A stretch of 20,398 bases of DNA from a virus, in the IMG/VR virus record IMGVR_UViG_3300013127_001003, positions 1-20,398 of that record; one strand, 5' to 3'. The notes under the pieces are model-generated. The model made no database searches and was not told the DNA's origin. It was given only the letters and a program-made list of their open reading frames with translations. This document shows positions 2,942 to 17,167 of the stretch, one piece after another (position 1 is the first letter of the stretch; the number at the start of each line of letters is the position of its first letter). The position numbers and the translations under genes are program-made.

Positions 2942-3289
2942 ATGCGTCCACAATCTGCTAAAGCAAAAGGCAGAAGACTGCAACAATGGGTTCGTGATCA
3001 ACTGATTGAACACCTTGAAGTACATCCAGAAGACATTGAAAGTCGCAGCATGGGTGCAGGCGGTGAAGATCTTATCATGGCAAGAGACGCTAGACAGAAG
3101 TTTCCTTTTTCGATAGAATGTAAGAACCAAGAGAAACTAAATATTTGGGACGCATATGAACAGGCCTGCGCCAATTCTGGCGATTATGAGCCTATAGTTT
3201 TTATAAAAAAGAACGGTAAAAAACCTTTAGTTGTATTAGACGCAGAACACTTTATCAGGAGCAAAAACAATGTCAGTGAACCTAATTGA
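2942..3289 (+). CDS. Small PD-(D/E)XK-type endonuclease (Holliday-junction-resolvase/VRR-like), 115 aa
   Basis: Probably a DNA nuclease. A basic N-terminal helix (KAKGRRLQQWVRDQL, residues 8-21) is followed by a PD-(D/E)XK core: G40-G41-E42-D43 is the acidic half and I58-E59-C60-K61 the E-x-K half, and then come a Gln/Glu-rich helix and a strand with PIVFIKK. At 115 residues it matches single-domain phage resolvase-like nucleases. The start directly follows the nrdB terminator and has no obvious Shine-Dalgarno sequence. The 3' end overlaps the next gene by 20 nt. The substrate (junction, nicked DNA or a packaging intermediate) cannot be read from the sequence. Confidence 0.7.
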   Translation: MRPQSAKAKGRRLQQWVRDQLIEHLEVHPEDIESRSMGAGGEDLIMARDARQKFPFSIECKNQEKLNIWDAYEQACANSGDYEPIVFIKKNGKKPLVVLDAEHFIRSKNNVSEPN

Positions 3290-4118
3290 TTTTTTCAAGT
3301 ACTATGATGAGACTAAAGCAAATCATATTGCTGCAGTTGGACTATTGTCCCAAGCAATGCCTGCCGATCTCAAGAAACAAAACTGTGAATGGGTAACAAA
3401 ATATCGTGGTGGTAATGCATTTGGTGGAAATGTAGATCTCCATAAGTTCTTTGAGTTCTTTAGTGAGCGTAATCCTAATCATGTTACTGGTGTAGAAATT
3501 CTTCGTAAAGCACTGTCTGCAAATCTTTTAGTGGATAGTGCTGCTTGGGTAGAAAAATATCGTGAAAGACCAACATTTCCTGTTACGTTACCAGTTCCTT
3601 ACTATAATCAGGTAGATAACTATAGAGATGCTCATAGAACATGCAACAGTTCTTGTTGTGCAATGTGTTTGGAATATTTCAAACCAGGAACTTTAGTGGG
3701 TCCTAAGGGAGATGATGCTTACGTCAAGAAAGTATTTGCAATTGGCGACACGACAGATCACTCGGTTCAGACCAGTGTTCTACAATCTTATGGTATCAAG
3801 TCACGTTTTAGTTACAATCTTTCTTTTTCTGATCTTGATCGTGAACTTGCCGCTGGGAAACCTGTTGTTATCGGGATCCTTCATCGGGGTTCTTTATCTG
3901 CACCTACTGGTGGGCACATGGTTGTAGTCATTGGTAAAAAAGGATCTGATTATATTATGAATGATCCATATGGAACTCTAAACGATGGATATACTAGCGC
4001 AGTTGCAAATGGCAAACAGACTGTTTATACTAAATCTGTTCTTCAGCGTCGTTGGTGCCCTAACGGTAATGATGGATGGGGAAGGATCTTTGATCAACCA
4101 GCGCCTGTAAAAAAGTAA
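3270..4118 (+). CDS. C39-like cysteine peptidase with two N-terminal repeats (upstream partner of a probable -1 frameshift fusion)
   Basis: Likely a cell-wall or lysis hydrolase. Residues ~5-46 and ~58-98 form two related ~42-residue repeats (pattern FF..F......NH..gv.lL..A........WV.KYR), possibly a wall-binding module. Residues ~105-275 resemble the peptidase C39_2 family: PYYNQVDNY, then a Cys-rich nucleophile region (C125...C129-C130), G214-G215-H216-MVVVIG as the catalytic His region, and N231-D232-P as the Asp. AGGAG at 3257-3261 sits 8 nt before the ATG, a good ribosome binding site. The last codons are GTA AAA AAG TAA, which contain a correctly phased A_AAA_AAG slippery heptamer. Slipping back one base would continue into the lysozyme frame and give a ~447-residue product. 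The peptidase call is moderately confident. Confidence 0.75.
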   Translation: MSVNLIDFFKYYDETKANHIAAVGLLSQAMPADLKKQNCEWVTKYRGGNAFGGNVDLHKFFEFFSERNPNHVTGVEILRKALSANLLVDSAAWVEKYRERPTFPVTLPVPYYNQVDNYRDAHRTCNSSCCAMCLEYFKPGTLVGPKGDDAYVKKVFAIGDTTDHSVQTSVLQSYGIKSRFSYNLSFSDLDRELAAGKPVVIGILHRGSLSAPTGGHMVVVIGKKGSDYIMNDPYGTLNDGYTSAVANGKQTVYTKSVLQRRWCPNGNDGWGRIFDQPAPVKK

Positions 4119-4141
4119 TAGCGGCAGTGACAACCACTGCC
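4109..4141 (+). promoter_or_regulatory. Probable programmed -1 ribosomal frameshift signal (slippery A_AAA_AAG plus hairpin)
   Basis: The heptamer AAAAAAG (4109-4115) is phased A_AAA_AAG in the peptidase frame and is followed at once by TAA. After a 7-nt spacer (4116-4122) comes a perfect 7-bp, mostly G-C hairpin, GGCAGTG (4123-4129) / CACTGCC (4135-4141), with loop ACAAC. A -1 slip leads directly into the lysozyme frame (Val-Ile-Ala-Ala-Val-Thr...). This is the slippery sequence of E. coli dnaX. The only start-like codon for the lysozyme, GTG 4127, is buried in the hairpin stem. A homopolymer sequencing error remains the main alternative. Confidence 0.7.
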
Positions 4142-4612
4142 AATGCCAACGAATTATCCGAAGTTGGCGTTAGATTGATCAAAGAATTTGAAGGATGTCA
4201 CTTACAAGCATATCCAGATCCTCATACTGGAGGATTACCAATCACTATTGGATGGGGATCTACACGTAAAACAGATGGAACTCCATTCAAACTTGGTGAT
4301 AAAATCACTCAGAAAGAAGCAGATGAACTGTTACTAGAGCAGTGCAGAAATGAATTTTTACCAGTGCTTGGAAAAATTCCTTATTGGGATGAAATGAATA
4401 TCAATCAACGTGGAGCACTTCTTTCTTTTGCATATAATTTGGGAGCAAATTTTTATGGAAGTCCAGACTTCAATACTATTACAAGGAGATTGAAGTTCAA
4501 ACAATGGGATGCTGTTCCTGATGCATTATTTCTTTATAGAAATCCTGGTTCAAATGTAGAAGCAGGACTAGCACGTAGAAGAAAAGCAGAAGGTGATCTT
4601 TGGAACAGGTAA
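4127..4612 (+). CDS. GH24 phage lysozyme (endolysin domain), probably expressed by -1 frameshift from the upstream peptidase ORF
   Basis: Peptidoglycan muramidase of the T4-lysozyme/GH24 family. Numbered from the GTG at 4127, the catalytic triad candidates are E22 (KEFEG), D31 (YPDP) and T40 (PITIGWGS). The E-D spacing equals T4 E11/D20, and there is a 3-residue insertion before the Thr. The family signatures NQRGALLSFAYNLG and GLARRRKAEGDLW follow. At 161 residues it is a complete domain. No ATG is available and the GTG has no Shine-Dalgarno sequence and lies in a hairpin stem, so independent initiation would be poor. The in-frame upstream codons (KKVIAAVTTTANAN) read as an Ala/Thr-rich linker, which fits fusion to the C39 protein. 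Confidence 0.9.
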   Translation: MTTTANANELSEVGVRLIKEFEGCHLQAYPDPHTGGLPITIGWGSTRKTDGTPFKLGDKITQKEADELLLEQCRNEFLPVLGKIPYWDEMNINQRGALLSFAYNLGANFYGSPDFNTITRRLKFKQWDAVPDALFLYRNPGSNVEAGLARRRKAEGDLWNR

Positions 4613-4980: not shown

Positions 4981-5098
4981 TCGCTTTACAGCGATTACAT
5001 CATGAGATTTTGATGTGACAATTAGAGCCCAGGAGATTGCCCCTTGAGAAAGGGGAAGTGCGCTTTCTCTATTGGGATGTAGAGTTCAATCAATTTTA
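4981..5098 (+). promoter_or_regulatory. Structured ~118-nt 5' leader of the RlpA-like gene
   Basis: The leader holds consecutive hairpins: TCGCT-TTAC-AGCGA (4981-4994), an ACATCA/TGATGT stem just downstream, and CCCCTT-GAG-AAGGGG near 5040-5055. The last lies inside a possible longer stem (CCCA..GAGA with TCTC..TGGG) ending near 5076. A start-stop pair ATGTAG sits at 5077. The leader does not match a riboswitch consensus I can recall; I considered and rejected the glutamine (glnA) motif. It may stabilise the mRNA or control translation. Confidence 0.4.
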
Positions 5099-5461
5099 AT
5101 GCTTTTCAAAACACTTTCTATTATTGCTTTTGGTCTTGTCGGATTGGCACCCGTAACAGCAAAGGCAGCGAGCGGATGTTCCCTCGCATCACATTATGGA
5201 GTTGGTGACGGATATCATGGGCAGATTACTGCCAATGGCGAAAGATATAACGCTTACAGGAAATCAGTAGCACATAGATCATTACCATTCGGAACTAGAT
5301 TGCGAGTTACAAACCAACGAAACGGTAAATCTGTAATTGTGCGAGTAAATGATAGGGGTCCTTACGTTGATGGTAGATCCCTTGACTTGTCTTATGGTGC
5401 TTTCTCTTCCATTGCACATCCTGGTCAAGGGGTTGCTAGTGTTTGCTATTCCAGAGTGTAA
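5099..5461 (+). CDS. Secreted RlpA-like double-psi beta-barrel protein, 120 aa
   Basis: Probably exported and acting on or binding peptidoglycan. From ATG 5099 there is a signal peptide (K4, hydrophobic core ~5-19, cleavage after the AKA/AKAA region at ~21-24). The remainder is the RlpA/DPBB core: ASHYG (30-34), TANGERY (44-50), AHRSLPFGT (58-66) and VRVNDRGPY (81-89), with D85 as the conserved acid. Two Cys (27, 116) could form a disulfide at the domain ends. A TTG at 5072 would put nine residues before the signal peptide and is unlikely. RlpA proteins in bacteria are septal lytic transglycosylases or glycan binders; a phage copy could help lysis or modify the host wall. Two strong host-type promoters precede it. 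Confidence 0.85.
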   Translation: MLFKTLSIIAFGLVGLAPVTAKAASGCSLASHYGVGDGYHGQITANGERYNAYRKSVAHRSLPFGTRLRVTNQRNGKSVIVRVNDRGPYVDGRSLDLSYGAFSSIAHPGQGVASVCYSRV

Positions 5462-5471: not shown

Positions 5472-5668
5472 TGGGTGAGAACTGCAGGTCTCACCCTAAC
5501 AAAGCAATCCGAGACTATGAACGCTTGACAGTTGATGATGGAACTGTTAGAATGTTACCACCACGATACTCCGAGTTTTCAGTTGACGAAAGAGTATGCT
5601 ATACTGGAGAATGTAAATCCCTGGATGATGAAATAAGATTAACTGCTCCGTGGCATGTGTCTCAGTAG
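5471..5668 (+). CDS. Hypothetical protein, 65 aa, whose stop codon is U8-A9-G10 of tRNA-Arg
   Basis: Not recognised. The product starts MGENCRSH and is mostly polar and acidic (VDDGTVRMLPPRYSEF, DERVCYTGEC), without a membrane segment. A GTG three codons upstream (5462) is an alternative start. The reading frame runs 10 nt into tRNA-Arg and ends at the invariant TAG of the tRNA (positions 8-10). A hairpin covers the first codons and two possible promoters lie inside it. These features make it uncertain whether the whole frame is translated. Confidence 0.4.
   Translation: MGENCRSHPNKAIRDYERLTVDDGTVRMLPPRYSEFSVDERVCYTGECKSLDDEIRLTAPWHVSQ
5473..5496 (+). terminator. Hairpin after the RlpA-like gene (weak terminator or processing site)
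   Basis: Perfect 8-bp stem GGGTGAGA (5473-5480) / TCTCACCC (5489-5496) with an 8-nt loop, 11 nt after the stop. It is not followed by a T-run (TAACAAAG follows), so intrinsic termination would be weak. Confidence 0.4.
5525..5553 (+). promoter_or_regulatory. Sigma-70-type promoter upstream of the tRNA-Arg/Asn/Thr group
   Basis: TTGACA (5525-5530), 17-bp spacer, TAGAAT (5548-5553) with a TGT extended -10. A second extended -10, TGCTATACT (5597-5605), lies 50 nt further on with only a poor -35 (TTTTCA, 18-bp spacer). Either would transcribe the tRNA group that starts at 5659. Confidence 0.5.
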
Positions 5669-5731
5669 CTCAGTGGATAGAGCATCTGCCTTCTAAGCAG
5701 TTGGTCGCTGGTTCGACCCCAGCCTGAGACG
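5659..5731 (+). tRNA. tRNA-Arg (anticodon TCT)
   Basis: Acceptor GTCTCAG pairs with CTGAGAC. The D-arm is TAGCTCAGTGGATAGAGC, the anticodon loop CTTCTAA gives TCT, and the T-arm is GCTGG-TTCGACC-CCAGC. Discriminator G; no encoded CCA. It decodes AGA, a codon favoured in this AT-rich genome. Confidence 0.95.
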
Positions 5732-5751
5732 CTCCTTTACTAGAAAAAATT

Positions 5752-5910
5752 ATGTCATTACTATCACAACAAGACCGCGAAATGGTTATCGAAGCACTAG
5801 AATATTATGTGCAAAGACTAAAAGATAACAACTGTAACCAAGCAGCAGTAAGTTCTTTTCAGACACTTTTGAATTGGGTCGAGCTGGAGCATTATAAAAA
5901 CGAAAAGTAA
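5752..5910 (+). CDS. Hypothetical small protein, 52 aa, between tRNA genes
   Basis: Not recognised. ATG 5752 to TAA 5910 encodes a soluble, probably helical 52-residue protein starting MSLLSQQDREM, with a heptad-like middle (IEALEYYVQRL, residues 13-23) and an acidic/basic tail ending HYKNEK. It fills the gap between tRNA-Arg and tRNA-Asn almost exactly, leaving 20 and 4 nt. There is no clear Shine-Dalgarno sequence; AGAAAAAA precedes the ATG. Codon use looks like its neighbours. Confidence 0.6.
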   Translation: MSLLSQQDREMVIEALEYYVQRLKDNNCNQAAVSSFQTLLNWVELEHYKNEK

Positions 5911-5914
5911 TCTT

Positions 5915-5986
5915 TGGGGTGTAGCTCAGCGGTAGAGCGAGCGACTGTTAATCGCTTGGTCGTAAGTTCGATCCTTACCACCCCAG
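5915..5986 (+). tRNA. tRNA-Asn (anticodon GTT)
   Basis: Acceptor TGGGGTG pairs with CACCCCA. The anticodon loop CTGTTAA gives GTT and the T-arm is GTAAG-TTCGATC-CTTAC. Discriminator G; no encoded CCA. It lies two bases before tRNA-Thr. Confidence 0.95.
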
Positions 5987-5988
5987 TT

Positions 5989-6062
5989 GCTATTGTAGCT
6001 CAGTTGGATAGAGCAACGGTTTTGTAAACCGTAGGTCGTCGGTTCAAGTCCGACCAGTAGCT
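5989..6062 (+). tRNA. tRNA-Thr (anticodon TGT)
   Basis: Acceptor GCTATTG pairs with CAGTAGC (one G-T). The anticodon loop TTTGTAA gives TGT and the T-arm is GTCGG-TTCAAGT-CCGAC. Discriminator T; no encoded CCA. A late-type promoter abuts its 3' end. Confidence 0.95.
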
Positions 6063-6070
6063 TATAAATA
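6063..6070 (+). promoter_or_regulatory. T4-type late promoter TATAAATA
   Basis: An exact TATAAATA octamer, the T4 late-promoter core, starts one base after tRNA-Thr. It sits 19 nt before the first ATG of the AT-rich cassette (6089), which fits phage-controlled late expression of that cassette. The surrounding A/T tract raises the chance of a random match. Confidence 0.6.
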
Positions 6071-6088
6071 AAAAAAATAATATTGGTT

Positions 6089-6331
6089 ATGCTAAAAATT
6101 AGTAAAGAACATTTGAAAAAAAGTCAAGAGACTTATGGCAGTCATTTAATTTGGGCAACCTATGCTGGGATCAAGATGATCTTGGTGGGATGTTCTAGTA
6201 TTGTACATGGAATTGTTCCTGCATTTTTTCAAGGAACTGCAGCTAAGACTGTTATTGATTTTTATCATAAACGTTTGGTAAATCATCCAAATAATGAATA
6301 TCAAGACTATATCGATCAGTATAAAAAATGA
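6089..6331 (+). CDS. Small conserved membrane-associated protein, 80 aa (resembles DUF6356-type)
   Basis: Function unknown. The product starts MLKISKEHLKKSQETY, followed by a moderately hydrophobic stretch (residues ~20-50: HLIWATYAGIKMILVG, then SSIVHGIVPAFF). The C-terminal part is DFYHKRLVNHPNNEYQ. The pattern of a hydrophobic middle plus HPN resembles, from memory, a small family called DUF6356. A TTG at 6083 is a poorer alternative start. Its TGA overlaps the ATG of the adenylate-forming enzyme (ATGA at 6328), so the two are probably translationally coupled. It follows a late promoter. Confidence 0.7.
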   Translation: MLKISKEHLKKSQETYGSHLIWATYAGIKMILVGCSSIVHGIVPAFFQGTAAKTVIDFYHKRLVNHPNNEYQDYIDQYKK

Positions 6332-7818
6332 TTATTACTAGAGAAATTATTAACAAAAATATAAAATTTTATGATGTGAAGGTGCCAGGTCCAGATGAGG
6401 ATGACCTCGATCCAGGGTGCTTTGAGTATACATATAGCGATTTATCTATTGCAATAGATTTATATAAAAATTTACTAATAGATAATGGAGTATCTCCACA
6501 GGAAACAGTAACAATTGGAGAACTTCCCTCTATATGGCAGATTGCTGCATTGTTTGCAGCATTTGAACTTGGATTAAAAGTTAGCATCAGTGATTATTAT
6601 AAATCACCAATTGTATCAAGAAGCAAACACAAAAAATTTGAATTGGATTCGAAAACAAAAGCATTGCTTCCAATAGATTATGCATTAAGAGATAAAAAAC
6701 AGAATAGTAATAAATTATTATATAATACAAGGATCTCAAGTAAAGAAATAGTCCACAAATTTTCTTACCAAGATTTAAATTCTAATTCTATAGAACTAAA
6801 AAAATATCCTCATAATACAGAAGATGATTTTATAGCAGTAAAAAGTGCTACTAGTGGGACAACAGGAGCTCCAAAATGTGTGGAACATTCTCATCGTTTT
6901 TTGTATGAATTAGCACATAGGAATAGTAAATTATTTTCGGGAGATTATTGTTGTTATAGAAACCATAACTTTAATCATGGCAGCAGTTTATTTTGTTATA
7001 TTGTACCGGCTTTAATTTCTAAAGATATATCCAATTTTTATTCATTTGAAGGTAGAGATCACGTAGGATTTTTGCAGTTTATATCTTCATTAAAAAGAAA
7101 AACTCATCTAATGTTTCCATATATTACTCAAATTGAACACTTTTTAAATTACTTAAATGATGTTGATAAAAAATGTCCAAATATTATTGCTCATGTATTG
7201 ACATTTATCCCTAAACCTTGGAAAAATGAGTTTTATTCGAATAAAATAATTGGTGATGTTATTAGTAATTTTGGTAGTAATGAAACAACGGGACCAGTTT
7301 TCTTAAATAAACTTAGTGATGATCAATTTCTAGAGTGTCAATATAAATTAATTGATAATTTTTTTAAAGTCAAAATAGTTAGAACTGGATTGCAAGTTGA
7401 TATGCCAGTATATAATAAATCTATTATAATGAATGATAGATTTGAATCTAATGGAGCGAATTCTTTTGTTCATACAGGAAGATCTAATTTTATTAGAATT
7501 AATGATACTGAAGTGCAAATAGAAAAATACCAAATTTTAATTGAAGAAACAATAAATGGAACTTTAGTATATGATCAAATTAGATCTAAAATTTATTTGG
7601 CAATATGGGATGTAAGTTATACTACTAAAGATACTAACATAACTTCACTTATCAATGATGCAAATGCTAAATTAAAAGATTTATCTTTATATAAACATTA
7701 TATAAGTAAATATACAATTTTAAATTATGAAGATTATCTTGGTGCAATAAAACTTGATATGGAAAAATTGCGAGAATATTTTAGAAATCCTGATGAAGAT
7801 TATCAAACAATCGATTAG
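6328..7818 (+). CDS. ANL-superfamily adenylate-forming enzyme (acyl/aryl-CoA-synthetase-like AMP ligase), 496 aa
   Basis: Should activate a carboxylic acid as an acyl-adenylate; substrate and acceptor are unknown. The core motifs are present in order: A3 P-loop SATSGTTGAPKC (173-184), A5 FGSNETTG (315-322), an A7-like Asp (ND370RFE), A8 hinge GRSNFIRIN (384-392) and the A10 catalytic Lys in LGAIK475. The length is typical of a stand-alone ligase, and no carrier-protein or condensation domain is fused. No carrier protein is visible nearby. The gene is strikingly AT-rich (one sampled 60-nt block, 7321-7380, is ~18% G+C), unlike nrdAB or the sugar operon. It is coupled by ATGA to the upstream small protein and overlaps or abuts the next oxygenase. 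Such enzymes are unusual in phages and suggest acquired cargo. Confidence 0.85.
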   Translation: MIITREIINKNIKFYDVKVPGPDEDDLDPGCFEYTYSDLSIAIDLYKNLLIDNGVSPQETVTIGELPSIWQIAALFAAFELGLKVSISDYYKSPIVSRSKHKKFELDSKTKALLPIDYALRDKKQNSNKLLYNTRISSKEIVHKFSYQDLNSNSIELKKYPHNTEDDFIAVKSATSGTTGAPKCVEHSHRFLYELAHRNSKLFSGDYCCYRNHNFNHGSSLFCYIVPALISKDISNFYSFEGRDHVGFLQFISSLKRKTHLMFPYITQIEHFLNYLNDVDKKCPNIIAHVLTFIPKPWKNEFYSNKIIGDVISNFGSNETTGPVFLNKLSDDQFLECQYKLIDNFFKVKIVRTGLQVDMPVYNKSIIMNDRFESNGANSFVHTGRSNFIRINDTEVQIEKYQILIEETINGTLVYDQIRSKIYLAIWDVSYTTKDTNITSLINDANAKLKDLSLYKHYISKYTILNYEDYLGAIKLDMEKLREYFRNPDEDYQTID

Positions 7819-8287
7819 AATGGAATTGGTTCAGTTTTGTAATCAAGAAATAGATGCATTGATATCTGAGCGTGTTTGGTCGTCTAATCAGATTACCTGG
7901 GATGAAAGTTTATTTGCCGACATTCCAGGTATTTGTTTATCTGCAGATGTATCTTTTCTCTTAGAAAGAGAATTGAAGAAAGAATTATTACGTCATCTAC
8001 CTAAGGTAGATAAGATTATTATTAATTATAATCTATGGTTGAAAAATTCTGGTATTCGTTGGCATACAGATGCCAATTATGCTTTTGGTGCTACATTATA
8101 TTTAAATGATTGGGATAAGAAGTGGGGCGGTTTGTTTTTATGGGAAGATGTAGATGAACAAATCCATGCGTTGTGCCCACAATCAAATGTGCTTGTAATA
8201 AATACGGAAGCAGAAAGTCATTCTGTAACACAAGTTTCTTCTATAGCGTCTTATCCAAGAAGGTCTTTACAAATCTGGGGAATATAA
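7793..8287 (+). CDS. 2-oxoglutarate/Fe(II)-dependent oxygenase (prolyl-4-hydroxylase-like), ~164 aa
   Basis: Probably hydroxylates a small molecule or peptide using 2-oxoglutarate and oxygen. It has the jelly-roll facial triad and cosubstrate Arg: W-H-x-D (H82/D84 in numbering from ATG 7820), then the LYLND and WGGLFLW strands, the distal His in ESHSV (H134), and R147-R148 in YPRRSLQIW. Possible starts are ATG 7793 (chosen; overlaps the AMP ligase by 26 nt) and ATG 7820 (two bases after it); neither has a clear ribosome binding site. It ends three bases before the radical SAM gene. It shares the AT-rich composition of the cassette. Confidence 0.85.
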   Translation: MKIIKQSIRMELVQFCNQEIDALISERVWSSNQITWDESLFADIPGICLSADVSFLLERELKKELLRHLPKVDKIIINYNLWLKNSGIRWHTDANYAFGATLYLNDWDKKWGGLFLWEDVDEQIHALCPQSNVLVINTEAESHSVTQVSSIASYPRRSLQIWGI

Positions 8288-8290
8288 TCT

Positions 8291-9406
8291 ATGAAAAATA
8301 TTTGTAAATCTCCTTTTACTGGATTTGTTATTGGCACACAAGGAGATATTTTTTATTGCTGTATGGGAATTCGTGATATCTATAAGATATCAAATATTAA
8401 TGAAATTGATGATTTAGGAGAATTTTTTAAAACATCTCCAGATCTTAAGAGTGTACGAAGAAAATTTATGGATGGTGAGTTTGAAAAAATTTCCCCGTGT
8501 TTTGAATGTCTTGAAAAGGAAAAAAAATTCATAAAAACATTTAAAGATAGTATCGATAAAAAATTTCCAAATAATATTGATGATATAAAACTTAGATACT
8601 TGGAATTAACCACTAGTAATATTTGTAATGCTGTCTGTTCAACATGTAATAGTTACTTAAGTTCTTCTTGGAAAAAATATGATAGTTTGTTTGGTAGAAT
8701 AGAATTTCCTCTGCAAAAATTATCAAATTCTTCTATTAATAAAATAAAAAATATTTTGTCAGGACTAGAATACATGATAATAAAAGGTGGGGAACCTTTT
8801 GCGGATGATAATAATATTTCAATTTTAGAAAATCTTTTTGATATTAATAAAGAATGCGAAGTTGCTATAGTAACAAACATGTCTTTATTGAGAGAAAATC
8901 ATATTCGTGTCTTAAATAAAAATCCTAGTAAAGTAAATTTAACAGCTAGTATAGATGGAACTAAAGAAATTTATTCATGGATTAGAAGCACTGATTTTGA
9001 TGTAGTAGTTGCAAACATGAAAAAAGTATATGATCAGACAGGAATAAGATTTGATATTAGCATTACGTTATCAATTTATAACTTCTTTAATATTATTGAT
9101 ATTATTGAATATTTTTCAAGTAAATTATATGTAAAATCAATAGAATTTTCTAATATTTTGCACAAACCTGTAGCGTGTTCTATACAATCATTGCCTGAGA
9201 ATATATTTAATATTCAAAAGAAAAAAATATATGATAATAAAATATTTTGCGATAACGTAACTTCAGAATCATTTGAAAAATTAAATAATTTTTTGCATAT
9301 AAAAGAAAATAAAGAGTTAGTTTTTGATCATATACATAAAATAAATCAAATCAGAGGATTTGATATTTGTGATTATGTTCCAGAACTTAAAGACTGGAGG
9401 GGTTGA
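8291..9406 (+). CDS. Radical SAM protein with an unusual N-terminal Cys-rich (SPASM/twitch-like) region, 371 aa
   Basis: Radical SAM enzyme: LELTTSNIC112-NAVC116-STC119 is the CxxxCxxC [4Fe-4S] motif, and GGE (166-168, KGGEPF) is the SAM-binding motif. Before this domain, residues 1-75 contain C5, C23-C24 (GDIFYCCMG) and C70-C73 (CFEC). That pattern looks like an auxiliary-cluster SPASM/twitch segment, which normally lies C-terminal. The C-terminal ~170 residues complete the barrel and hold few Cys. Radical SAM/SPASM enzymes often modify peptides or sugars, but the substrate here is unknown. The gene is very AT-rich (block 8701-8760 is ~18% G+C). Its stop codon lies inside the -35 box of the next tRNA promoter. 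Confidence 0.88.
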   Translation: MKNICKSPFTGFVIGTQGDIFYCCMGIRDIYKISNINEIDDLGEFFKTSPDLKSVRRKFMDGEFEKISPCFECLEKEKKFIKTFKDSIDKKFPNNIDDIKLRYLELTTSNICNAVCSTCNSYLSSSWKKYDSLFGRIEFPLQKLSNSSINKIKNILSGLEYMIIKGGEPFADDNNISILENLFDINKECEVAIVTNMSLLRENHIRVLNKNPSKVNLTASIDGTKEIYSWIRSTDFDVVVANMKKVYDQTGIRFDISITLSIYNFFNIIDIIEYFSSKLYVKSIEFSNILHKPVACSIQSLPENIFNIQKKKIYDNKIFCDNVTSESFEKLNNFLHIKENKELVFDHIHKINQIRGFDICDYVPELKDWRG

Positions 9407-9431
9407 CAGAAAAATAAAATTTTGGTATAGT
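9403..9431 (+). promoter_or_regulatory. Sigma-70-type promoter of the tRNA-Leu/Gly/Val group
   Basis: TTGACA (9403-9408), 17-bp spacer, TATAGT (9426-9431) with a TGG extended -10. The predicted transcript starts near 9438, ahead of a tiny ORF and a hairpin that precede tRNA-Leu. Confidence 0.65.
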
Positions 9432-9452
9432 ATACAGGTGTGAAGGAAGTGC

Positions 9453-9486
9453 AATGGGCATGAGAGATCTGTAAGTCCCATTTTTT
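9453..9486 (+). terminator. Hairpin with T6 tract directly before tRNA-Leu (attenuator-like)
   Basis: AATGGG (9453-9458) pairs with CCCATT (9477-9482) around an 18-nt loop, and six T (9481-9486) end exactly at the first base of tRNA-Leu. The stem is short, so termination would be partial. It overlaps a six-codon ORF with a strong ribosome binding site (GAAGGAAG 9442-9449, ATG 9454, TAA 9472-9474; peptide MGMRDL). This resembles a leader-peptide arrangement, but that role is speculative. Confidence 0.4.
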
Positions 9487-9568
9487 GTCGGTGTGGCGGA
9501 ATTGGTAGACGCGCTGGGTTTAGGTTCCAGTGGGGTATCCCGTGAAGGTTCAAGTCCTTTCACCGACA
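9487..9568 (+). tRNA. tRNA-Leu (anticodon TAG)
   Basis: Acceptor GTCGGTG pairs with CACCGAC. The D-arm is GGCGGAATTGGTAGAC, the anticodon loop TTTAGGT gives TAG, and a variable arm typical of class II tRNAs is present, followed by the T-loop TTCAAGT. Discriminator A; no encoded CCA. Confidence 0.95.
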
Positions 9569-9654
9569 TTGGTACTCGCTAGGCAGATATCCTAGAAGGA
9601 GACCAAGTTAGATTGTTTGCGCTGGACAGATAAACCAGAATGCCGCAATCTTTC
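9569..9654 (+). other. Structured spacer between tRNA-Leu and tRNA-Gly
   Basis: These 86 nt show no ORF but two nested hairpins: TTGGT/ACCAA (about 9570-9605) enclosing CTAGG/CCTAG, then GATTG/CAATC (about 9611-9650) enclosing CTGG/CCAG. No tRNA fold could be completed. It may be a decayed tRNA, a processing spacer or a small structured RNA. Confidence 0.35.
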
Positions 9655-9726
9655 GCGGAATTAGTTCAGTGGTAGAACGTCAGCCTTCCAAGCTGAATGT
9701 CATCGGTTCAAGTCCGATATTCCGCT
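9655..9726 (+). tRNA. tRNA-Gly (anticodon TCC), CCA encoded at 9727-9729
   Basis: Acceptor GCGGAAT pairs with ATTCCGC. The anticodon loop CTTCCAA gives TCC and the T-arm is ATCGG-TTCAAGT-CCGAT. The discriminator T is followed by an encoded CCA, and the next base starts tRNA-Val, so the two tRNAs abut without spacer. Confidence 0.95.
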
Positions 9727-9729
9727 CCA

Positions 9730-9801
9730 GGGTGATTAGCTCAGCGGTAGAGCATCTCGTTTACACCGAGGCTGTCGGCAGTTCGATCCTGTCATCACCC
9801 A
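9730..9801 (+). tRNA. tRNA-Val (anticodon TAC)
   Basis: Acceptor GGGTGAT pairs with ATCACCC. The anticodon loop TTTACAC gives TAC and the T-arm is GGCAG-TTCGATC-CTGTC (one G-T). Discriminator A; no encoded CCA. Confidence 0.95.
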
Positions 9802-9842
9802 TATCAATAAGTAAAAAGTAGTAGATAAGAAAGTGTAATAAG

Positions 9843-10349
9843 ATGAAAACTTTTTCTCAGTTCATGGTAGAATGTCAGCACATCCAAGAGACCTCGCTCA
9901 ATCGTGTCAAGTCTAAATCGGATAAAGGTGGCATGGCAATTATGTCCGCTGAACGTGGAGACAAATCTAAGTCTCAAAATAAAGCACGATCCAGGCAATT
10001 GGCGAAGGATATTCGCGGCGCTGGTCTTCCTGGTCCGACAAAAGTCAAAGGAAGATATACAGAAAATCCTGGAACAAAGGATGAAAAAAAAGTTTCTGAA
10101 AAATCTTATGTAGTTTCTTCTGGTAAGAAAGGAAAGAGAAAATTCAAAAAAGCAATTACTAAACTTGGCGCTAAGTACAATCAAGATTCTGTATTAGTTC
10201 AAAAGAAAAAGTCTGCAAGTCTTACTGGAACTTCCAAAACATCTTGGCCAGGTAAAGGTAAAAATGTTAAAGTTGGAAAAATGAACCCAGGTAAAACTGG
10301 TGAATTTGATACTAAAGTGAAAAACAAAACATTTACTTATGAAAACTAA
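9843..10349 (+). CDS. Conserved T4-like cyanophage protein, basic, 168 aa
   Basis: Function unknown. The N-terminus MKTFSQFMVE is a start shared by several T4-like cyanophage proteins I recall. The rest is strongly basic and Lys/Gly/Ser-rich: MSAERGDKSKSQN (34-46), a conserved-looking core DIRGAGLPGPTKVKGRY (56-72), KSYVVSSGKKGKRKFKKA (87-104) and KYNQDSVLVQKKK (111-123). No transmembrane segment. The basic nature suggests nucleic-acid or virion association, but that is inference. It overlaps the next small gene by 11 nt and has no clear Shine-Dalgarno sequence. Confidence 0.8.
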   Translation: MKTFSQFMVECQHIQETSLNRVKSKSDKGGMAIMSAERGDKSKSQNKARSRQLAKDIRGAGLPGPTKVKGRYTENPGTKDEKKVSEKSYVVSSGKKGKRKFKKAITKLGAKYNQDSVLVQKKKSASLTGTSKTSWPGKGKNVKVGKMNPGKTGEFDTKVKNKTFTYEN

Positions 10350-10524
10350 ATTTCCATTTCCACATGTAGTGGACTGTAACGAAAAAACTGTATGGGTGCT
10401 TTGTGATAGTGCTATCACTGCAATGGGCGTTGGTTCTATTGTAAAAAAATTCTATCCTGGGTATACTCCTAAAATTGCCAGTAAGGAATATTTTCAAACC
10501 CTAAATAACCAAAAGCAACTTTGA
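10339..10524 (+). CDS. Hypothetical protein, 61 aa
   Basis: Not recognised. The ATG at 10339 overlaps the end of the previous gene (ATGAAAACTAA). The product has a hydrophobic N-terminal half (FPFPHVVDCNEKTVWVLCDS, residues 5-24, then AITAMGVGSIV) and a basic, aromatic C-terminal half (KKFYPGYTPKIASKEYFQ). The hydrophobicity is too broken for a confident membrane helix. Codon use and the tight spacing (2 nt to the next ATG) support translation. Confidence 0.55.
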   Translation: MKTKFPFPHVVDCNEKTVWVLCDSAITAMGVGSIVKKFYPGYTPKIASKEYFQTLNNQKQL

Positions 10525-10525
10525 A

Positions 10526-10723
10526 ATGAAACTATCCAAACTCAAGAAAATCATTCAAAAACCCTTGAGGTTTCATCATCAGGATATACATGAAGAGTTA
10601 GAAGACATTAAAAATGAACTCAAACACATTAATGATACGTTGCAAGTGTTGCAACAAGGAGTTGAAGAGCTCCTCAAAGCGAATAGTTTGCGGATGCCCC
10701 AATCGGGCAACGATTTATGGTGA
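10526..10723 (+). CDS. Small coiled-coil protein, 65 aa, overlapping the next gene
   Basis: Not recognised. The product starts MKLSKLKKIIQKPLRF and continues with a clear heptad pattern (residues ~20-52: IHEELEDIKNELKHIND, then TLQVLQQGVEELL), so a parallel coiled coil is likely. The stop at 10721-10723 lies 92 nt inside the start of the zinc-ribbon gene in another frame. It begins one base after the previous stop. The coiled-coil part lies mostly outside the overlap, which favours a real gene whose tail is constrained by its neighbour. Confidence 0.55.
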   Translation: MKLSKLKKIIQKPLRFHHQDIHEELEDIKNELKHINDTLQVLQQGVEELLKANSLRMPQSGNDLW

Positions 10724-10874
10724 TAAGATTTCAGCAGTAGATCTTTCACAAATCGTTGTCTTAGAAGGGTTTACAAAAAAGCAATCTTCTAGTATACTAA
10801 GTAAAGATGACCTCGCTTTTCAGGAAGCAAGGCGTCAACGAAAAGTTAGAAAACTTGAATTTGAAATTCGCTAA
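10632..10874 (+). CDS. Small zinc-ribbon-like cyanophage protein, 80 aa
   Basis: Function unknown. From ATG 10632 the product begins MIRCKCCNKELKSSSKR with C4/C6/C7, followed by VCGCPNR at about 19-25, giving a four- to five-Cys zinc-ribbon-like pattern. ATIYGDKISAVDLSQIVVLEG follows, a segment I associate with conserved T4-like cyanophage proteins. An in-frame ATG at 10614 would add six residues before the Cys motif. The C-terminus is basic (ARRQRKVRKLEFEIR). It overlaps the coiled-coil gene by 92 nt, and its TAA overlaps the next ATG (TAATG). Confidence 0.65.
   Translation: MIRCKCCNKELKSSSKRIVCGCPNRATIYGDKISAVDLSQIVVLEGFTKKQSSSILSKDDLAFQEARRQRKVRKLEFEIR
10770..10798 (+). promoter_or_regulatory. 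Possible sigma-70-type promoter upstream of the Ser/Ala/Pro tRNA group
   Basis: TTTACA (10770-10775), 17-bp spacer, TATACT (10793-10798). It lies inside the zinc-ribbon gene and would supply the small membrane gene at 10874 and the tRNAs after it. Confidence 0.45.
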
Positions 10875-11131
10875 TGTGGAGACTTTGGTGTAAATCGTTA
10901 GGTGAGAAAGCTTCTGATGAAAATCATGAAGCAGATCGCATAGCAATTATACGGACAGTAATCTTCACTACATACTTTATAACAAATGCATTTATTGTTG
11001 CAGGCGTTATAAGACATTGGAATGATTGTGAATGGAAGCGTGGCCGAGTGGTTTATGGCAGTAGTCTTGAAAACTACCGTGTTAGTAGCACCGTTGGTTC
11101 GAATCCAACCGCTTCCGCCTTGGGGAATTAG
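10874..11131 (+). CDS. Small membrane protein whose frame reads through tRNA-Ser and stops in tRNA-Ala
   Basis: The first ~50 residues look real: MWRLWCKSLGEKASDENHEAD, then one transmembrane segment (about 27-46, IRTVIFTTYF onward) and IRHW. I recall cyanophage homologues of this shape about 50 residues long. Here no stop occurs before tRNA-Ser (11034). The frame crosses the whole tRNA and ends at TAG 11129-11131, which is U8-A9-G10 of tRNA-Ala. Residues after ~53 are therefore probably not a selected protein tail. Its ATG overlaps the previous stop (TAATG). Confidence 0.5.
   Translation: MWRLWCKSLGEKASDENHEADRIAIIRTVIFTTYFITNAFIVAGVIRHWNDCEWKRGRVVYGSSLENYRVSSTVGSNPTASALGN
11034..11117 (+). 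tRNA. tRNA-Ser (anticodon TGA)
   Basis: Acceptor GGAAGCG pairs with CGCTTCC. The D-region is TGGCCGAGTGGTTTATGGC, the anticodon loop CTTGAAA gives TGA, and a long variable arm precedes the T-arm GTTGG-TTCGAAT-CCAAC. Discriminator G; no encoded CCA. Confidence 0.95.
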
Positions 11132-11194
11132 CTCAGTTGGTAGAGCGCCTGCTTTGCAAGCAGGATGTCAGCGGTTCGAGTCCGCTATTCTCCA
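11122..11194 (+). tRNA. tRNA-Ala (anticodon TGC), CCA encoded at 11195-11197
   Basis: Acceptor GGGGAAT pairs with ATTCTCC (one G-T). The anticodon loop TTTGCAA gives TGC and the T-arm is AGCGG-TTCGAGT-CCGCT. Discriminator A is followed by an encoded CCA, and tRNA-Pro begins at the next base. Confidence 0.96.
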
Positions 11195-11197
11195 CCA

Positions 11198-11269
11198 CGG
11201 AGTGTAAGTCAGCGGTAGACGGCTGCTTTTGGGAAGCAGAAGACGTTGGTTCGATCCCAACCACTCCGA
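11198..11269 (+). tRNA. tRNA-Pro (anticodon TGG)
   Basis: Acceptor CGGAGTG pairs with CACTCCG. The anticodon stem-loop CTGCT-TTTGGGA-AGCAG gives TGG and the T-arm is GTTGG-TTCGATC-CCAAC. Discriminator A; no encoded CCA. The D-arm (AAGTCAGCGGTAGAC) departs from the usual TAGCTCAG. Confidence 0.92.
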
Positions 11270-11272
11270 CTA

Positions 11273-11783: not shown

Positions 11784-12152
11784 ATGAGTTGTACATGTGT
11801 ACGCAGGGAAAGACCTTGGGGTTGGTACGAGACTATTGATCAAGGACAATCATACAAGGTCAAAAGGATTTATGTAAATCCAAACGCACGGTTTTCCCTT
11901 CAATATCACAATGATCGAATTGAACATTGGAACATTGTGGAAGGGTTTGGTTTAGTTCAACTAAACGAATATACCGAATGGGTTCACCCTGGAAAGCATT
12001 TTCATATTCCAATCAACTCCCGTCACCGCATGACTGCTGGTGACGAAGGAGTTCTTTTTATTGAAGTTCAATATGGCAACTGCCATGAGGATGACATTGT
12101 GCGATTGGAAGATGATTATGGTAGAATAGGTAGTGATTATTACACGGACTGA
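11784..12152 (+). CDS. Cupin of the mannose-6-phosphate isomerase type II family, 122 aa
   Basis: Resembles the C-terminal isomerase domain of bifunctional mannose-1-phosphate guanylyltransferase/mannose-6-phosphate isomerase. RPWGWYE (10-16), KVKRIYVNPNARFSLQYH (25-42) with the RIEHW metal-binding region (45-49), the FHIPINSRHRM second His cluster (about 73-83), and the family tail EVQYGNCHEDDIVRLEDDYGR (94-114) are all present. Alone it should interconvert fructose-6-P and mannose-6-P to feed GDP-mannose synthesis, which fits the GDP-mannose 3,5-epimerase downstream. The guanylyltransferase domain is absent. It is the first gene of the operon, directly after the structured RNA stretch, and its stop overlaps the next ATG by one base. 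Confidence 0.85.
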   Translation: MSCTCVRRERPWGWYETIDQGQSYKVKRIYVNPNARFSLQYHNDRIEHWNIVEGFGLVQLNEYTEWVHPGKHFHIPINSRHRMTAGDEGVLFIEVQYGNCHEDDIVRLEDDYGRIGSDYYTD

Positions 12153-13084
12153 TGTTTTTAGTTACTGGCGGTGCAGGTTTTATCGGCAGTAACTTTCTTC
12201 ACTATATGAAGAAAGTTACGAATGAAAAGGTCATCGTACTGGACAACTTGACTTACGCTGCGGATCTTCGGTTTATTCCTGAGGATCCGCAGTTTGAGTT
12301 TGTTTGGTGCGATATTACAAATGAAAATCATGTAGATTATATCTTCAAGAAATATAAACCACGCAAAGTCTTTCACTTTGCTGCGGAAAGTCATGTAGAT
12401 AATTCTATTACAAACTACAGACCATTTCTAGAAGCAAATGTCATTGGGACAATCAATCTTCTAAATTCTAGTCTAGCAATTGATATCCAGAAATTTCATC
12501 ACATCTCTACAGATGAAGTTTATGGATCATTAGAGTATGAAGATACCGAATTATTCACAGAAGAAACACCATACGATCCACGAAATCCATATAGTGCAAG
12601 TAAAGCTGCTTCAGATCATTATGTAAAGACATGGCATAATACTTATGGATTGCCATATCTAATTACTAATTGCAGTAATAACTATGGACAGCATCAGCAC
12701 ATTGAAAAACTTATTCCAAAAGTTATCTTCAATGCACTAAAAGACGAAGTGACTTATATGTATGGTGGTGGACAGCAGATCAGAGACTGGTTATACGTTT
12801 ATGATCATTGCCGTGCTATTTGGTCTTTGGAAGAACAACGTGTAATGAACGATCACTTCAATATTGGCGGTGATTGTGAATTGCAGAACATTGTAGTCAC
12901 AAAAAAGATCTTAGATATTCTTGGTAAACCACATAGTTTGATTGGAGTATCACACGATCGTCCTGGGCAGGACAAAAGATATGGGATGAGTTTTGAAAAA
13001 CTGACTAAGACTACAGGATGGATCCCACATATGGATTTTGATCAAGCACTGAAAATGACTGTTGATTGGTATTTGGGGCAATGA
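12152..13084 (+). CDS. dTDP-glucose 4,6-dehydratase-like SDR, 310 aa
   Basis: Extended short-chain dehydrogenase that should make a nucleotide 4-keto-6-deoxy sugar. It has the Rossmann motif GGAGFIG (6-12), HFAAESHVDNSI (75-86), the dehydratase triad T120-D121-E122 in STDEVYG, the catalytic Y147/K151 in YSASK, then CSNNYG, LIPK, IRDWLYVYDH and DRPGQDKRY, which are all RmlB-type signatures. It is about 40 residues shorter than typical RmlB. CDP- or GDP-linked substrates cannot be excluded, given the RfbH-like gene downstream. ATGA overlap with the next gene. Confidence 0.88.
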   Translation: MFLVTGGAGFIGSNFLHYMKKVTNEKVIVLDNLTYAADLRFIPEDPQFEFVWCDITNENHVDYIFKKYKPRKVFHFAAESHVDNSITNYRPFLEANVIGTINLLNSSLAIDIQKFHHISTDEVYGSLEYEDTELFTEETPYDPRNPYSASKAASDHYVKTWHNTYGLPYLITNCSNNYGQHQHIEKLIPKVIFNALKDEVTYMYGGGQQIRDWLYVYDHCRAIWSLEEQRVMNDHFNIGGDCELQNIVVTKKILDILGKPHSLIGVSHDRPGQDKRYGMSFEKLTKTTGWIPHMDFDQALKMTVDWYLGQ

Positions 13085-13896
13085 TTTCTTTATACGGTGG
13101 CACTGGGTTTGTAGGTGGTAATTTCAGAAAGATGTATGACGATTGCATAGAAATGCAACGTGATGAACGCAAACCAAAGACAAAAGACATTCTATATTTT
13201 ATTTCTACGGTTGACAATTATAATGTTCATGATAGAATTACACTTGACGTAGAGACTAATCTAAAAGTCTTATGTGAAGTATTAGATCACTGTAGATCCG
13301 AAGACATTACATTCAATTTTATTAGTTCCTGGTTTGTATATGGTAAAACTTCATACATGCCAGCAAAAGAAGATGCACGTTGTGAACCAACTGGGTTTTA
13401 TTCCATCACTAAACGCTGTGCAGAACAACTAATCATGTCGTTCGCAGATACATATGGAATGAAGTATCGTATTCTTCGACTTTGTAATGTTCTTGGTGCT
13501 GGTGATCAAAAAGCATCTAGGAAAAAGAATGCTATTACTTGGTTGATTGATGAACTCAAACTTCATCATGACATCAAACTTTATAACAATGGATCACATT
13601 GTCGTGATATAATGCACGTTCAAGATGTTTGTCGTGCAATCAAACTAGTTACCGACAAAGGTAACCTAAACGAGATTTATAATGTTGGATCTGGCAAACC
13701 AACATCAGTAGGCGAAATCATCCATCTTGCCAACCACTATATAAAGTCGAAGGGTAAGATTGAGAACATGGAACCACCAGTGTTCCACAAGAATGTTCAG
13801 ACAGAAAATTTCTGGATGGACACAAAGAAACTTCAATCACTTGGATTTGAACCAAAACTTTCTTTAGAATTCATTGTAAAAGATTTATGTCTGTAA
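13081..13896 (+). CDS. NAD-dependent epimerase/dehydratase/reductase (SDR), 271 aa
   Basis: Extended-SDR sugar-nucleotide enzyme, reaction unassigned. It has GGTGFVG (6-12) near the N-terminus, ISSWFVYG (81-88) with the catalytic Ser, and Y107-S-I-T-K111, followed by LRLCNVLGAGD and the C-terminal SGKPTSVGEI segment. The start ATG 13081 overlaps the previous stop as ATGA; an upstream in-frame start at 13066 would add five unneeded residues. Its position between a 4,6-dehydratase and a 3-dehydrase suggests it reduces or epimerises a 4-keto-(di)deoxy intermediate. It overlaps the next gene by 10 nt. Confidence 0.82.
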   Translation: MISLYGGTGFVGGNFRKMYDDCIEMQRDERKPKTKDILYFISTVDNYNVHDRITLDVETNLKVLCEVLDHCRSEDITFNFISSWFVYGKTSYMPAKEDARCEPTGFYSITKRCAEQLIMSFADTYGMKYRILRLCNVLGAGDQKASRKKNAITWLIDELKLHHDIKLYNNGSHCRDIMHVQDVCRAIKLVTDKGNLNEIYNVGSGKPTSVGEIIHLANHYIKSKGKIENMEPPVFHKNVQTENFWMDTKKLQSLGFEPKLSLEFIVKDLCL

Positions 13897-15203
13897 ACGA
13901 CAAAGTAACAAATTTTATTTCACAACTTCAACGCGATAAAGAAAACCTTTTCCCTTATCTTGCTAATAAAGATTGGAAGAAGGGTGATCAGATTTTCTAT
14001 TCTGGTCCTTACTGGGATGAACGTGAAGTTGCTGCAGCGATTACAACGCTTTTAGAAGGTAAGTGGTTGCCTGCTGGTGAGGAAGTCAATAAGTTTGAAC
14101 GAGCATTTTCTAAAATGTTCGATTTCAAGCATTCGGTAATGGTCAACTCAGGTTCTTCTGCGAACCTAGTCATGATTGCTGCACTAAAGAAATACTTTGA
14201 CTGGCAAGATGGTGATGAGATCATCGTCTGTGCTTGTGGTTTCCCAACTACAATCAATCCAATTATTCAGAATGGATTGAATCCAATCTTTGTTGACATT
14301 GATTACAGTGATCTGAACTGGAACCTAGACCAGATCCGTGAAAAGATTACAACCAGAACAAAGGCAGTATTCTCTTCACCTGTTTTGGGAAATCCCTACG
14401 ACTTCGATAAGTTTCTCGATATTGTCCACAGGTATAACCTTCATTACATCGCTGACAACTGTGATAGTCTTGGCAGTAGGTGGAGAGGTGATCTTCTTAC
14501 CAAACATGCCGTCGCAGCGTCGTGTTCGTTTTATCCAGCGCATCATATCAGTACTATCGAAGGAGGAATGGTTTCCTCTAATATTGAAGAGATTGTCCAG
14601 ATCGCTAGATCTTTTGCCTGGTGGGGTCGTGGATGCTACTGTGTAGGATCCCAGAATAAATTGCCCAACGGTGTCTGTGGAAATCGCTTTGACCGTTGGT
14701 TGGAAGGGTACGATAAGGATGTCGATCATAAGTATGTCTTCGGCGTTCAAGGATACAACCTCAAGCCTGCTGACTTGCAAGGGTCTATTGGGCTCGTACA
14801 GTTGGAGAAGCAAATAGAGATACATGCTATCCGTCGTCTCAACAAAGCTCGACTTCATGAGATCTTCTCTAAGATCCCTGGTGTGAGGGTTATTGAAGAG
14901 AAAGAACATGCTGAAACCTCCTGGTTTGGAGTTCCTATTGTATATGAGGACGGTAAACCGAACCTTGTGAAATATTTAGAAGAGCATGGTATTCAGACAA
15001 GAAATTATTTCGCTGGTAATATTCTTGCACATCCTGGATACAGGCACATTGAACCAGCATCCAATTATCCTAACGCATCTAAGGTGTTAGATAACGTATT
15101 TTTCCTCGGATGTAGCCCAGTTATTACCCTTGAAATGATTGGCTACATAGAAGAGGTTGTTGAAAACTATACAAAAAACAATTTACAATGGTATCCAGTA
15201 TGA
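13887..15203 (+). CDS. rfbH: RfbH/E1-type nucleotide-hexulose 3-dehydrase (PMP-dependent, DegT/DnrJ/EryC1 fold), 438 aa
   Basis: Removes the C3 hydroxyl in 3-deoxy- or 3,6-dideoxysugar synthesis. It has a DegT/DnrJ/EryC1 aminotransferase fold (NSGSSANL 87-94, ACGFPTT 116-122, IADNCDSLG 188-196). The Schiff-base Lys is replaced by His in SFYPAHHISTIEGGM (H219-H220), the mark of E1/RfbH/ColD dehydratases, and H220 has the same number as the catalytic His of Yersinia E1. A Cys loop follows (C250, C252, C264) where E1 carries its [2Fe-2S] cluster, but the fourth Cys seems to be missing. GYDKDVDHKYVFGVQGYNLK (274-293) matches RfbH. At 438 residues it is E1-sized, not the shorter ColD. Local G+C is clearly higher than in the AT-rich cassette. 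Confidence 0.87.
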   Translation: MSVNDKVTNFISQLQRDKENLFPYLANKDWKKGDQIFYSGPYWDEREVAAAITTLLEGKWLPAGEEVNKFERAFSKMFDFKHSVMVNSGSSANLVMIAALKKYFDWQDGDEIIVCACGFPTTINPIIQNGLNPIFVDIDYSDLNWNLDQIREKITTRTKAVFSSPVLGNPYDFDKFLDIVHRYNLHYIADNCDSLGSRWRGDLLTKHAVAASCSFYPAHHISTIEGGMVSSNIEEIVQIARSFAWWGRGCYCVGSQNKLPNGVCGNRFDRWLEGYDKDVDHKYVFGVQGYNLKPADLQGSIGLVQLEKQIEIHAIRRLNKARLHEIFSKIPGVRVIEEKEHAETSWFGVPIVYEDGKPNLVKYLEEHGIQTRNYFAGNILAHPGYRHIEPASNYPNASKVLDNVFFLGCSPVITLEMIGYIEEVVENYTKNNLQWYPV

Positions 15204-17142: not shown

Positions 17143-17163
17143 TATCCTAAACAATCCCTTTTC
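17134..17163 (+). terminator. Weak hairpin at the epimerase stop codon
   Basis: GGATTGT (17134-17140) / ACAATCC (17151-17157), then CTTTTC. A 7-bp A/T-rich stem overlapping the TGA. It could give partial termination or lower expression of the distal operon, and it makes a start for the next gene after it (17168) plausible. Confidence 0.35.
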
Positions 17164-17167
17164 TGGG

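Follow-up and report, generated by a model that had tools for sequence, protein, structure and literature searches.

A predicted -1 ribosomal frameshift signal linking a C39-like peptidase to a GH24 lysozyme in cyanophages

Introduction

How is a lysozyme translated whose reading frame offers no ATG and overlaps, in the -1 frame, the end of a peptidase gene? The question is raised by a 20.4-kb virus fragment (IMG/VR record IMGVR_UViG_3300013127_001003; 20,398 nucleotides, referred to as the window in the following), in which the gene order nrdA-nrdB-RusA-like-peptidase-lysozyme matches that of Synechococcus phage S-PM2 (family Kyanoviridae). A first-pass annotation of this DNA had proposed a dnaX-like -1 frameshift signal that fuses the two enzymes into a bifunctional lysin. 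We find that the peptidase mRNA very probably carries a -1 programmed ribosomal frameshift signal, which would yield a peptidase-lysozyme fusion. The presence of this predicted signal is strongly supported by the anatomy of the sequence, its conservation, synonymous constraint, covarying stems and purifying selection on the -1 frame. In the literature searched, which lacked most subscription papers, there was no report of a frameshifted lysozyme, endolysin or C39 peptidase in cyanophages, in line with the first-pass annotation, which knew of no such cyanophage lysis strategy.

Results

Anatomy of the junction

The peptidase ORF ends with the codons GTA AAA AAG TAA (4107-4118), and direct reading bears out the elements originally described: an in-phase A_AAA_AAG followed at once by TAA, a 7-nt spacer (TAATAGC, 4116-4122) and a perfect 7-bp hairpin with an ACAAC loop (Table 1). 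The junction has the make-up of an X_XXY_YYZ-type -1 signal, with an in-phase heptamer just ahead of the 0-frame stop and a downstream ORF in the -1 frame; its RNA structure begins 7 nt past the heptamer, within the 5-9 nt expected of such signals. Together, the hairpin and the second stem that follows it fold with -24 kcal/mol (z -4.9). The second stem had gone unmentioned in the first-pass annotation; its 3' arm overlaps the lysozyme 'VGV' codons, where most relatives have their main stem. The proximal hairpin is positioned unlike that main stem, and its own stem is also present in the nearest relative, L011. An Rfam search with the window signal gave no match.

Table 1. Features of the peptidase-lysozyme junction in the window
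Feature	Position	Strand	Evidence
0-frame ORF: two N-terminal helical repeats and C39-like cysteine peptidase	3270..4118	+	282 aa, stop TAA
First N-terminal repeat, about 47 aa, helical	3270..3410	+	profile match; four predicted helices per repeat
Second N-terminal repeat	about 3429-3570	+	profile match; four predicted helices per repeat
-1 frame ORF: linker and GH24 lysozyme, no ATG ahead of domain	4094..4612	+	direct reading; Pfam Phage_lysozyme 7.3e-22
Slippery heptamer A_AAA_AAG, peptidase phase	4109..4115	+	direct reading; also in 53/60 peptidase junctions
0-frame stop TAA, immediately 3' of heptamer	4116..4118	+	direct reading
Putative stimulatory hairpin GGCAGTG-ACAAC-CACTGCC: 7-bp stem, 5-nt loop ACAAC, 7 nt after heptamer; covers GTG 4127	4123..4141	+	direct reading, folding
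Second stem AATGCCAAC/GTTGGCGTT, directly 3' of hairpin	4142..4171	+	folding
GH24 lysozyme domain; catalytic-type Glu in FEG, T4-type lysozyme pattern	4166..4606	+	alignment, profile match

A -1 slip on the heptamer would enter the lysozyme frame, and the length of roughly 447 residues given for the resulting protein agrees with our computation: the predicted fusion has 282 + 165 = 447 aa (49.8 kDa) and the junction peptide VIAAVTTTANANELSEVGVR, while the peptidase alone has 31.3 kDa. The lysozyme ORF indeed has neither an ATG nor a ribosome binding site. The sole start codon in the -1 frame ahead of the lysozyme domain is GTG 4127, hidden in the stem, and a lysozyme started there would have the N-terminus MTTTANANELSEVGVR. 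This codon gives rise to a rival explanation, translational coupling, in which ribosomes would stop at TAA 4116 and start anew at GTG 4127, or at a non-standard codon, to produce a free lysozyme. The GTG does lie in the lysozyme frame, 9 nt past the stop; against its use, however, stand its position inside the stem and the lack of any Shine-Dalgarno-like sequence for it in the window.

Enzyme domains

The proposed order of two N-terminal repeats, a peptidase and a muramidase is corroborated by profile matches. The peptidase matches Pfam Peptidase_C39_2 (PF13529; E 2.7e-13), and its predicted fold resembles C39-like peptidases, with 3erv as the best PDB match; its papain-like fold and Cys-His-Asp arrangement (invariant C, H216 and D232 columns) identify it as C39-like. 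The lysozyme matches Pfam Phage_lysozyme (PF00959; E 7.3e-22) and shows the invariant E, D and T columns of GH24 enzymes in the alignment. The N-terminal repeats correspond to no named Pfam family, and a PDB fold search yielded no match for them. In C39-containing freshwater relatives, lysozymes with their own start come with an N-terminal helical domain of their own, whereas the frameshift-dependent ones do not. This distribution suggests that the latter borrow the domain from the upstream ORF; the domain is probably needed for both activities, in wall or substrate binding.

Survey of related junctions

We counted a junction wherever an ORF containing the N-terminal repeat domain had a lysozyme in a different frame no more than 160 nt further on. 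Scans of IMG/VR, together with the window and isolates, gave 75 distinct junctions, which fall into a PEP class with the C39 peptidase (n=60) and a REP class with only the repeat domain and a CPHCGKPLGK tail (n=15); since these sequences are related by descent, the counts below do not represent independent events. The relatives conserve what the first-pass annotation had suggested looking for, namely the heptamer, the -1 offset and compensatory changes in the stem. The lysozyme lies in the -1 frame at 75/75 junctions, and 72 of them have an in-phase X_XXY_YYZ heptamer at the stop or no more than two codons from it: A_AAA_AAG (53), G_GGA_AAG (15, all REP), T_TTT_TTT (3) and C_CCA_AAG (1). Among other ORF ends of the same loci, any heptamer occurs in the last two codons in 6/1030 cases and A_AAA_AAG in 0/1030. 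The association is also seen among peptidase ends, where A_AAA_AAG is found in 54/61 with an out-of-frame lysozyme vs 1/155 without one (Fisher p 6.5e-42). Synonymous sites are constrained as well: the KK codon pair is AAA AAG in 53/53 cases (0.25 expected from codon usage), and the preceding codon ends in A in all 53.

The isolates illustrate the range of these junctions. S-PM2 reads GCA AAA AAG TAA and S-CAM7, with a T8 run, GTT TTT TTT CCA CAG TAG, both with the lysozyme in -1, while S-SRM01 (GCA AAA AAG CAATGA) has an overlapping ATG. The deposited 'lysin' of S-PM2 and S-CAM7 begins only at an internal ATG (MNDNQRG...), so that the catalytic half is missing. In the REP class, the 0-frame product is exemplified by L033 (2726-2941), where termination at G_GGA_AAG gives a 72-aa repeat-domain protein ending in CPHCGKPLGK, a zinc-ribbon-like knuckle.

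The survey also bears on translational coupling. A separate lysozyme with an ATG and no slippery site, named at the outset as the case that would speak against frameshifting, does exist: the three junctions without a heptamer (L137, L168 and L350) all have an overlapping ATG start, and six other loci have a heptamer and an overlapping start together. The former are a small minority, however, and 35/60 PEP junctions have no ATG, GTG or TTG at all ahead of the lysozyme domain, while the heptamer codons are invariant. ATG codons in 14 REP-class loci were considered as starts and rejected; they are mostly the Met of 'PMMGIKLIKE', and because the same Met residues occur in in-frame homologues, we do not read them as starts.

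RNA structure downstream of the heptamer

Downstream folding has z < -2 at 61/72 heptamer junctions, with a mean of -3.6. In the PEP class, the 5' arm of the stem lies immediately past the stop and the 3' arm usually on the codons of the conserved lysozyme motif G[VI]xLIKE. The arms vary between loci and retain their complementarity, with 60 distinct stems in PEP and REP combined. Native arms pair with a duplex energy of -15.2 kcal/mol, compared with -8.6 kcal/mol for arms swapped among loci, and permutations as good as the native pairing were found in 0/20,000 cases for PEP and 12/20,000 for REP. With the two arms anchored separately, one on the heptamer and the other on the motif, compensatory pairs appear in three registers, offset from each other by whole codons; register 14, for example, contains A-U to G-C (18:6), C-G to U-A (21:5) and A-U to U-A (20:6) changes. 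Likewise, RNAalifold on 19 aligned junctions is consistent with a covarying stem. Stem and heptamer together thus carry the evolutionary marks of a maintained signal, i.e. compensatory stem changes and synonymous-site conservation in 53/53 loci.

Hairpin strength discriminates further between frameshifting and coupling. The mean hairpin energy is -4.5 kcal/mol in the loci with an overlapping start (n=6) and -16.8 kcal/mol where no start overlaps (p 1e-4), and weak hairpins in these six loci are as expected if the signal is no longer needed there. On this evidence, we consider translational coupling an improbable explanation of the window.

The heptamers and stems also speak to transcriptional slippage, in which RNA polymerase would add or drop an A in the run, such that some of the mRNA would code for the fusion. 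Such slippage can be favoured by runs of A or T, and the T8 run of S-CAM7 would suit it, but at the G_GGA_AAG and C_CCA_AAG junctions no run exceeds three, and covarying stems that lie 5-8 nt further downstream are a typical trait of ribosomal signals. Slippage of the polymerase therefore appears highly improbable to us, and ribosomal frameshifting the better account.

Decoding context

Among 64 heptamers tested in Escherichia coli, the three most efficient were A_AAA_AAG, G_GGA_AAG and C_CCA_AAG (PMC4066793), and these are the three AAG heptamers of the cyanophage junctions. G_GGA_AAG is described as highly shift-prone, and the reading of AAG by a single UUU tRNA as the condition for the slipperiness of A_AAA_AAG in E. 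coli (PMC5009743). A Synechocystis genome has 40 tRNA genes, including one tRNA-Lys, with anticodon UUU. A full-length tRNA search of ten further cyanobacterial genomes, from which the phage's own host may differ, found tRNA-Lys(UUU) in 10/10; an additional tRNA-Lys(CUU) is present in 1/11 cyanobacterial genomes. The phage itself contributes nine tRNA genes in the window (5659-11270; Arg, Asn, Thr, Leu, Gly, Val, Ser, Ala and Pro), with no tRNA-Lys among them.

Related fusions and evolution

Homologues fused in one frame, another of the checks initially suggested, exist in Synechococcus phage ACG-2014f, where peptidase and lysozyme form a single in-frame fusion. The two ORFs of the window align end to end with the two halves of this protein (PHROG phrog_3617), which has the same domains in the same order and differs in being a single 0-frame ORF. 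Fusions of the ACG-2014f type (L005, L172 and L174) retain GCA AAA AAG TCT GAG, followed by GGAGGG...CCCTCC, with the slip site about 30-40 nt ahead of the lysozyme domain. In ACG-2014f, a -1 slip would read GTC TGA and terminate after one codon, which is the polarity of dnaX. In S-CREM1 and others, the two domains are fused in the opposite order.

Further in-frame peptidase-lysin fusions result from an A7 in place of the A6 run, with downstream stems still visible (L322 and L327, near 3190; L540 and L541, near 2000); these variants are possibly a natural toggle or an assembly artefact. Together with the ACG-2014f fusion and the error-prone nature of homopolymers, they invite the explanation that the window junction reflects gene decay or a mistake in sequencing or assembling the A6 run, with a single uninterrupted ORF as the true gene. 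A sequencing error cannot be upheld, as 53 distinct loci share the junction, among them that of the cultured phage S-PM2. Moreover, 15 loci use G_GGA_AAG, which has no long run, L011 keeps the frame relation of the window with a different stop codon, and the frameshift-junction lysozymes are under purifying selection (median dN/dS 0.13 in the -1 frame). We thus attach hardly any probability to error or decay.

The second enzyme is not always a lysozyme of the GH24 type. The sole A_AAA_AAG exception among the 155 peptidase ends without an out-of-frame lysozyme, L345, had been taken as a counter-example and was dropped, as its -1 frame encodes a GH19-type endolysin. There (about 3196-3750, on a contig shared with L538), the peptidase and A_AAA_AAG-stop-hairpin lead in -1 into an ORF that matches a PHROG endolysin (8e-32) and, below the Pfam cut-off, Pfam GH19 (4e-4). 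The independent contig L539 (about 1998-2549) is organized alike, with a stem of 11 perfectly matched bp and a GH19-type endolysin in -1.

The lysozyme tree requires 12 gains or losses of the frameshift state, of which only 3 are forced by well-supported branches. Given few alignment columns and many unresolved forks, the tree is poorly resolved, and we therefore make no claim on the number of frameshift origins.

A separate observation concerns S-CRM01 (L356, about 2330-2370), where a GH24 lysozyme shifts to -1 inside its domain, at GAA AAA GAT, and the new frame leads on to a domain whose HGGG...HGCIRM motif is L,D-transpeptidase-like. This frame change may be either a sequencing error or another frameshift.

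Discussion

On the proposed mechanism, most ribosomes would stop at TAA 4116 and release a repeat-repeat-C39 peptidase of 31 kDa. A fraction would be paused by the hairpin 7 nt downstream, tRNA-Lys would re-pair from AAA_AAG to AAA_AAA, and translation would go on in the -1 frame as KK-VIAAVTTT... to give the 447-aa repeat-repeat-C39-GH24 fusion of 50 kDa. That ribosomes slip in infected cells, and how efficiently, is our inference. The most likely purpose would be the sharing of one N-terminal domain by two wall-cutting activities, with their ratio set by the frameshift; the fixed ratio of fusion to peptidase alone that the first-pass annotation envisaged may follow from such an arrangement.

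Judged from its sequence, the signal is of the dnaX / lambda G-GT kind of -1 frameshifting, newly found in cyanophage lysins. The likeness to dnaX holds for the heptamer and the hairpin but not for the polarity. Like the cyanophage signal, E. coli dnaX (tau/gamma) combines A_AAA_AAG with a downstream hairpin, and most of the cyanobacteria examined share with E. coli a single tRNA-Lys(UUU) (PMC5009743). Its slip, however, leads to the shorter product, whereas that in the window leads to the longer one, as in lambda G-GT, and dnaX polarity is seen only in the ACG-2014f relatives. The upstream Shine-Dalgarno-like stimulator of dnaX, for which we used a range of 6-17 nt ahead of the motif (PMC4066793), has no counterpart at that distance in the window, the nearest AGGA being at 4083-4086, 24 nt upstream of motif base 2. 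In the narrow sense of dnaX-type signals, the window thus lacks both the stimulator and the shorter slip product. Furthermore, dnaX encodes a polymerase subunit and the window junction a lysis enzyme.

Lambda gpG/gpGT resembles the window in being a phage gene with a 0-frame stop soon past the slip and a longer fusion as the minority product, while it encodes a tail-assembly chaperone and proteins unrelated to the cyanophage lysins. The lambda G-GT heptamer is G_GGA_AAG, as in the 15 REP-class relatives, and we know of no covarying stem in gpG/gpGT of the kind seen at the cyanophage junctions. Some endolysins use an internal start to obtain two products from one gene region. They share with the window the production of two lysin forms in some ratio; in their case, the shorter form arises by internal initiation, whereas in the window the forms would arise by frame choice. 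A lactococcal phage lysin is also cited, in the PRFect paper (PMC10885494), among the genes known to contain a frameshift; in what was consulted about it, neither cyanophages nor a pairing of C39 with GH24 are mentioned.

Taken over all junctions, it is likely that -1 frameshifting serves cyanophages as a modular means of sharing domains in lysis enzymes, in which an N-terminal domain, alone or with C39, is joined to a second wall-cutting domain only upon a slip. This device would use at least four heptamers and two unrelated downstream enzymes (GH24 and GH19), and lineages would switch between frameshifting, an overlapping start, in-frame fusion (changes from A6 to A7 among them) and reversed dnaX polarity. 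The arrangement is widespread, occurring in dozens of relatives, and is missed by present annotations, in which the second enzyme is often truncated. If our reading holds, a sizeable group of T4-like cyanophages have lysis enzymes that are misread at present, endolysins are to be added to the classes of genes with conserved programmed frameshifting, and lysis may rely on a ratio of two lysin forms that is set in translation. The junctions would then also provide a natural set of frameshift signals, with four heptamers and 60 distinct stems, for studies of the mechanism in cyanobacteria.

Two other regions of the window deserve mention. A small protein with an N-terminal signal-like segment (5072-5461) resembles RlpA-like lipoproteins, and RlpA is annotated near lysozyme or peptidase genes in S-CRM01 and S-SZBM1. 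Finally, the translations at 11784-20296 indicate a series of genes for sugar epimerase/dehydratase, aminotransferase and glycosyltransferase-like proteins, such as would serve to make surface polysaccharides.
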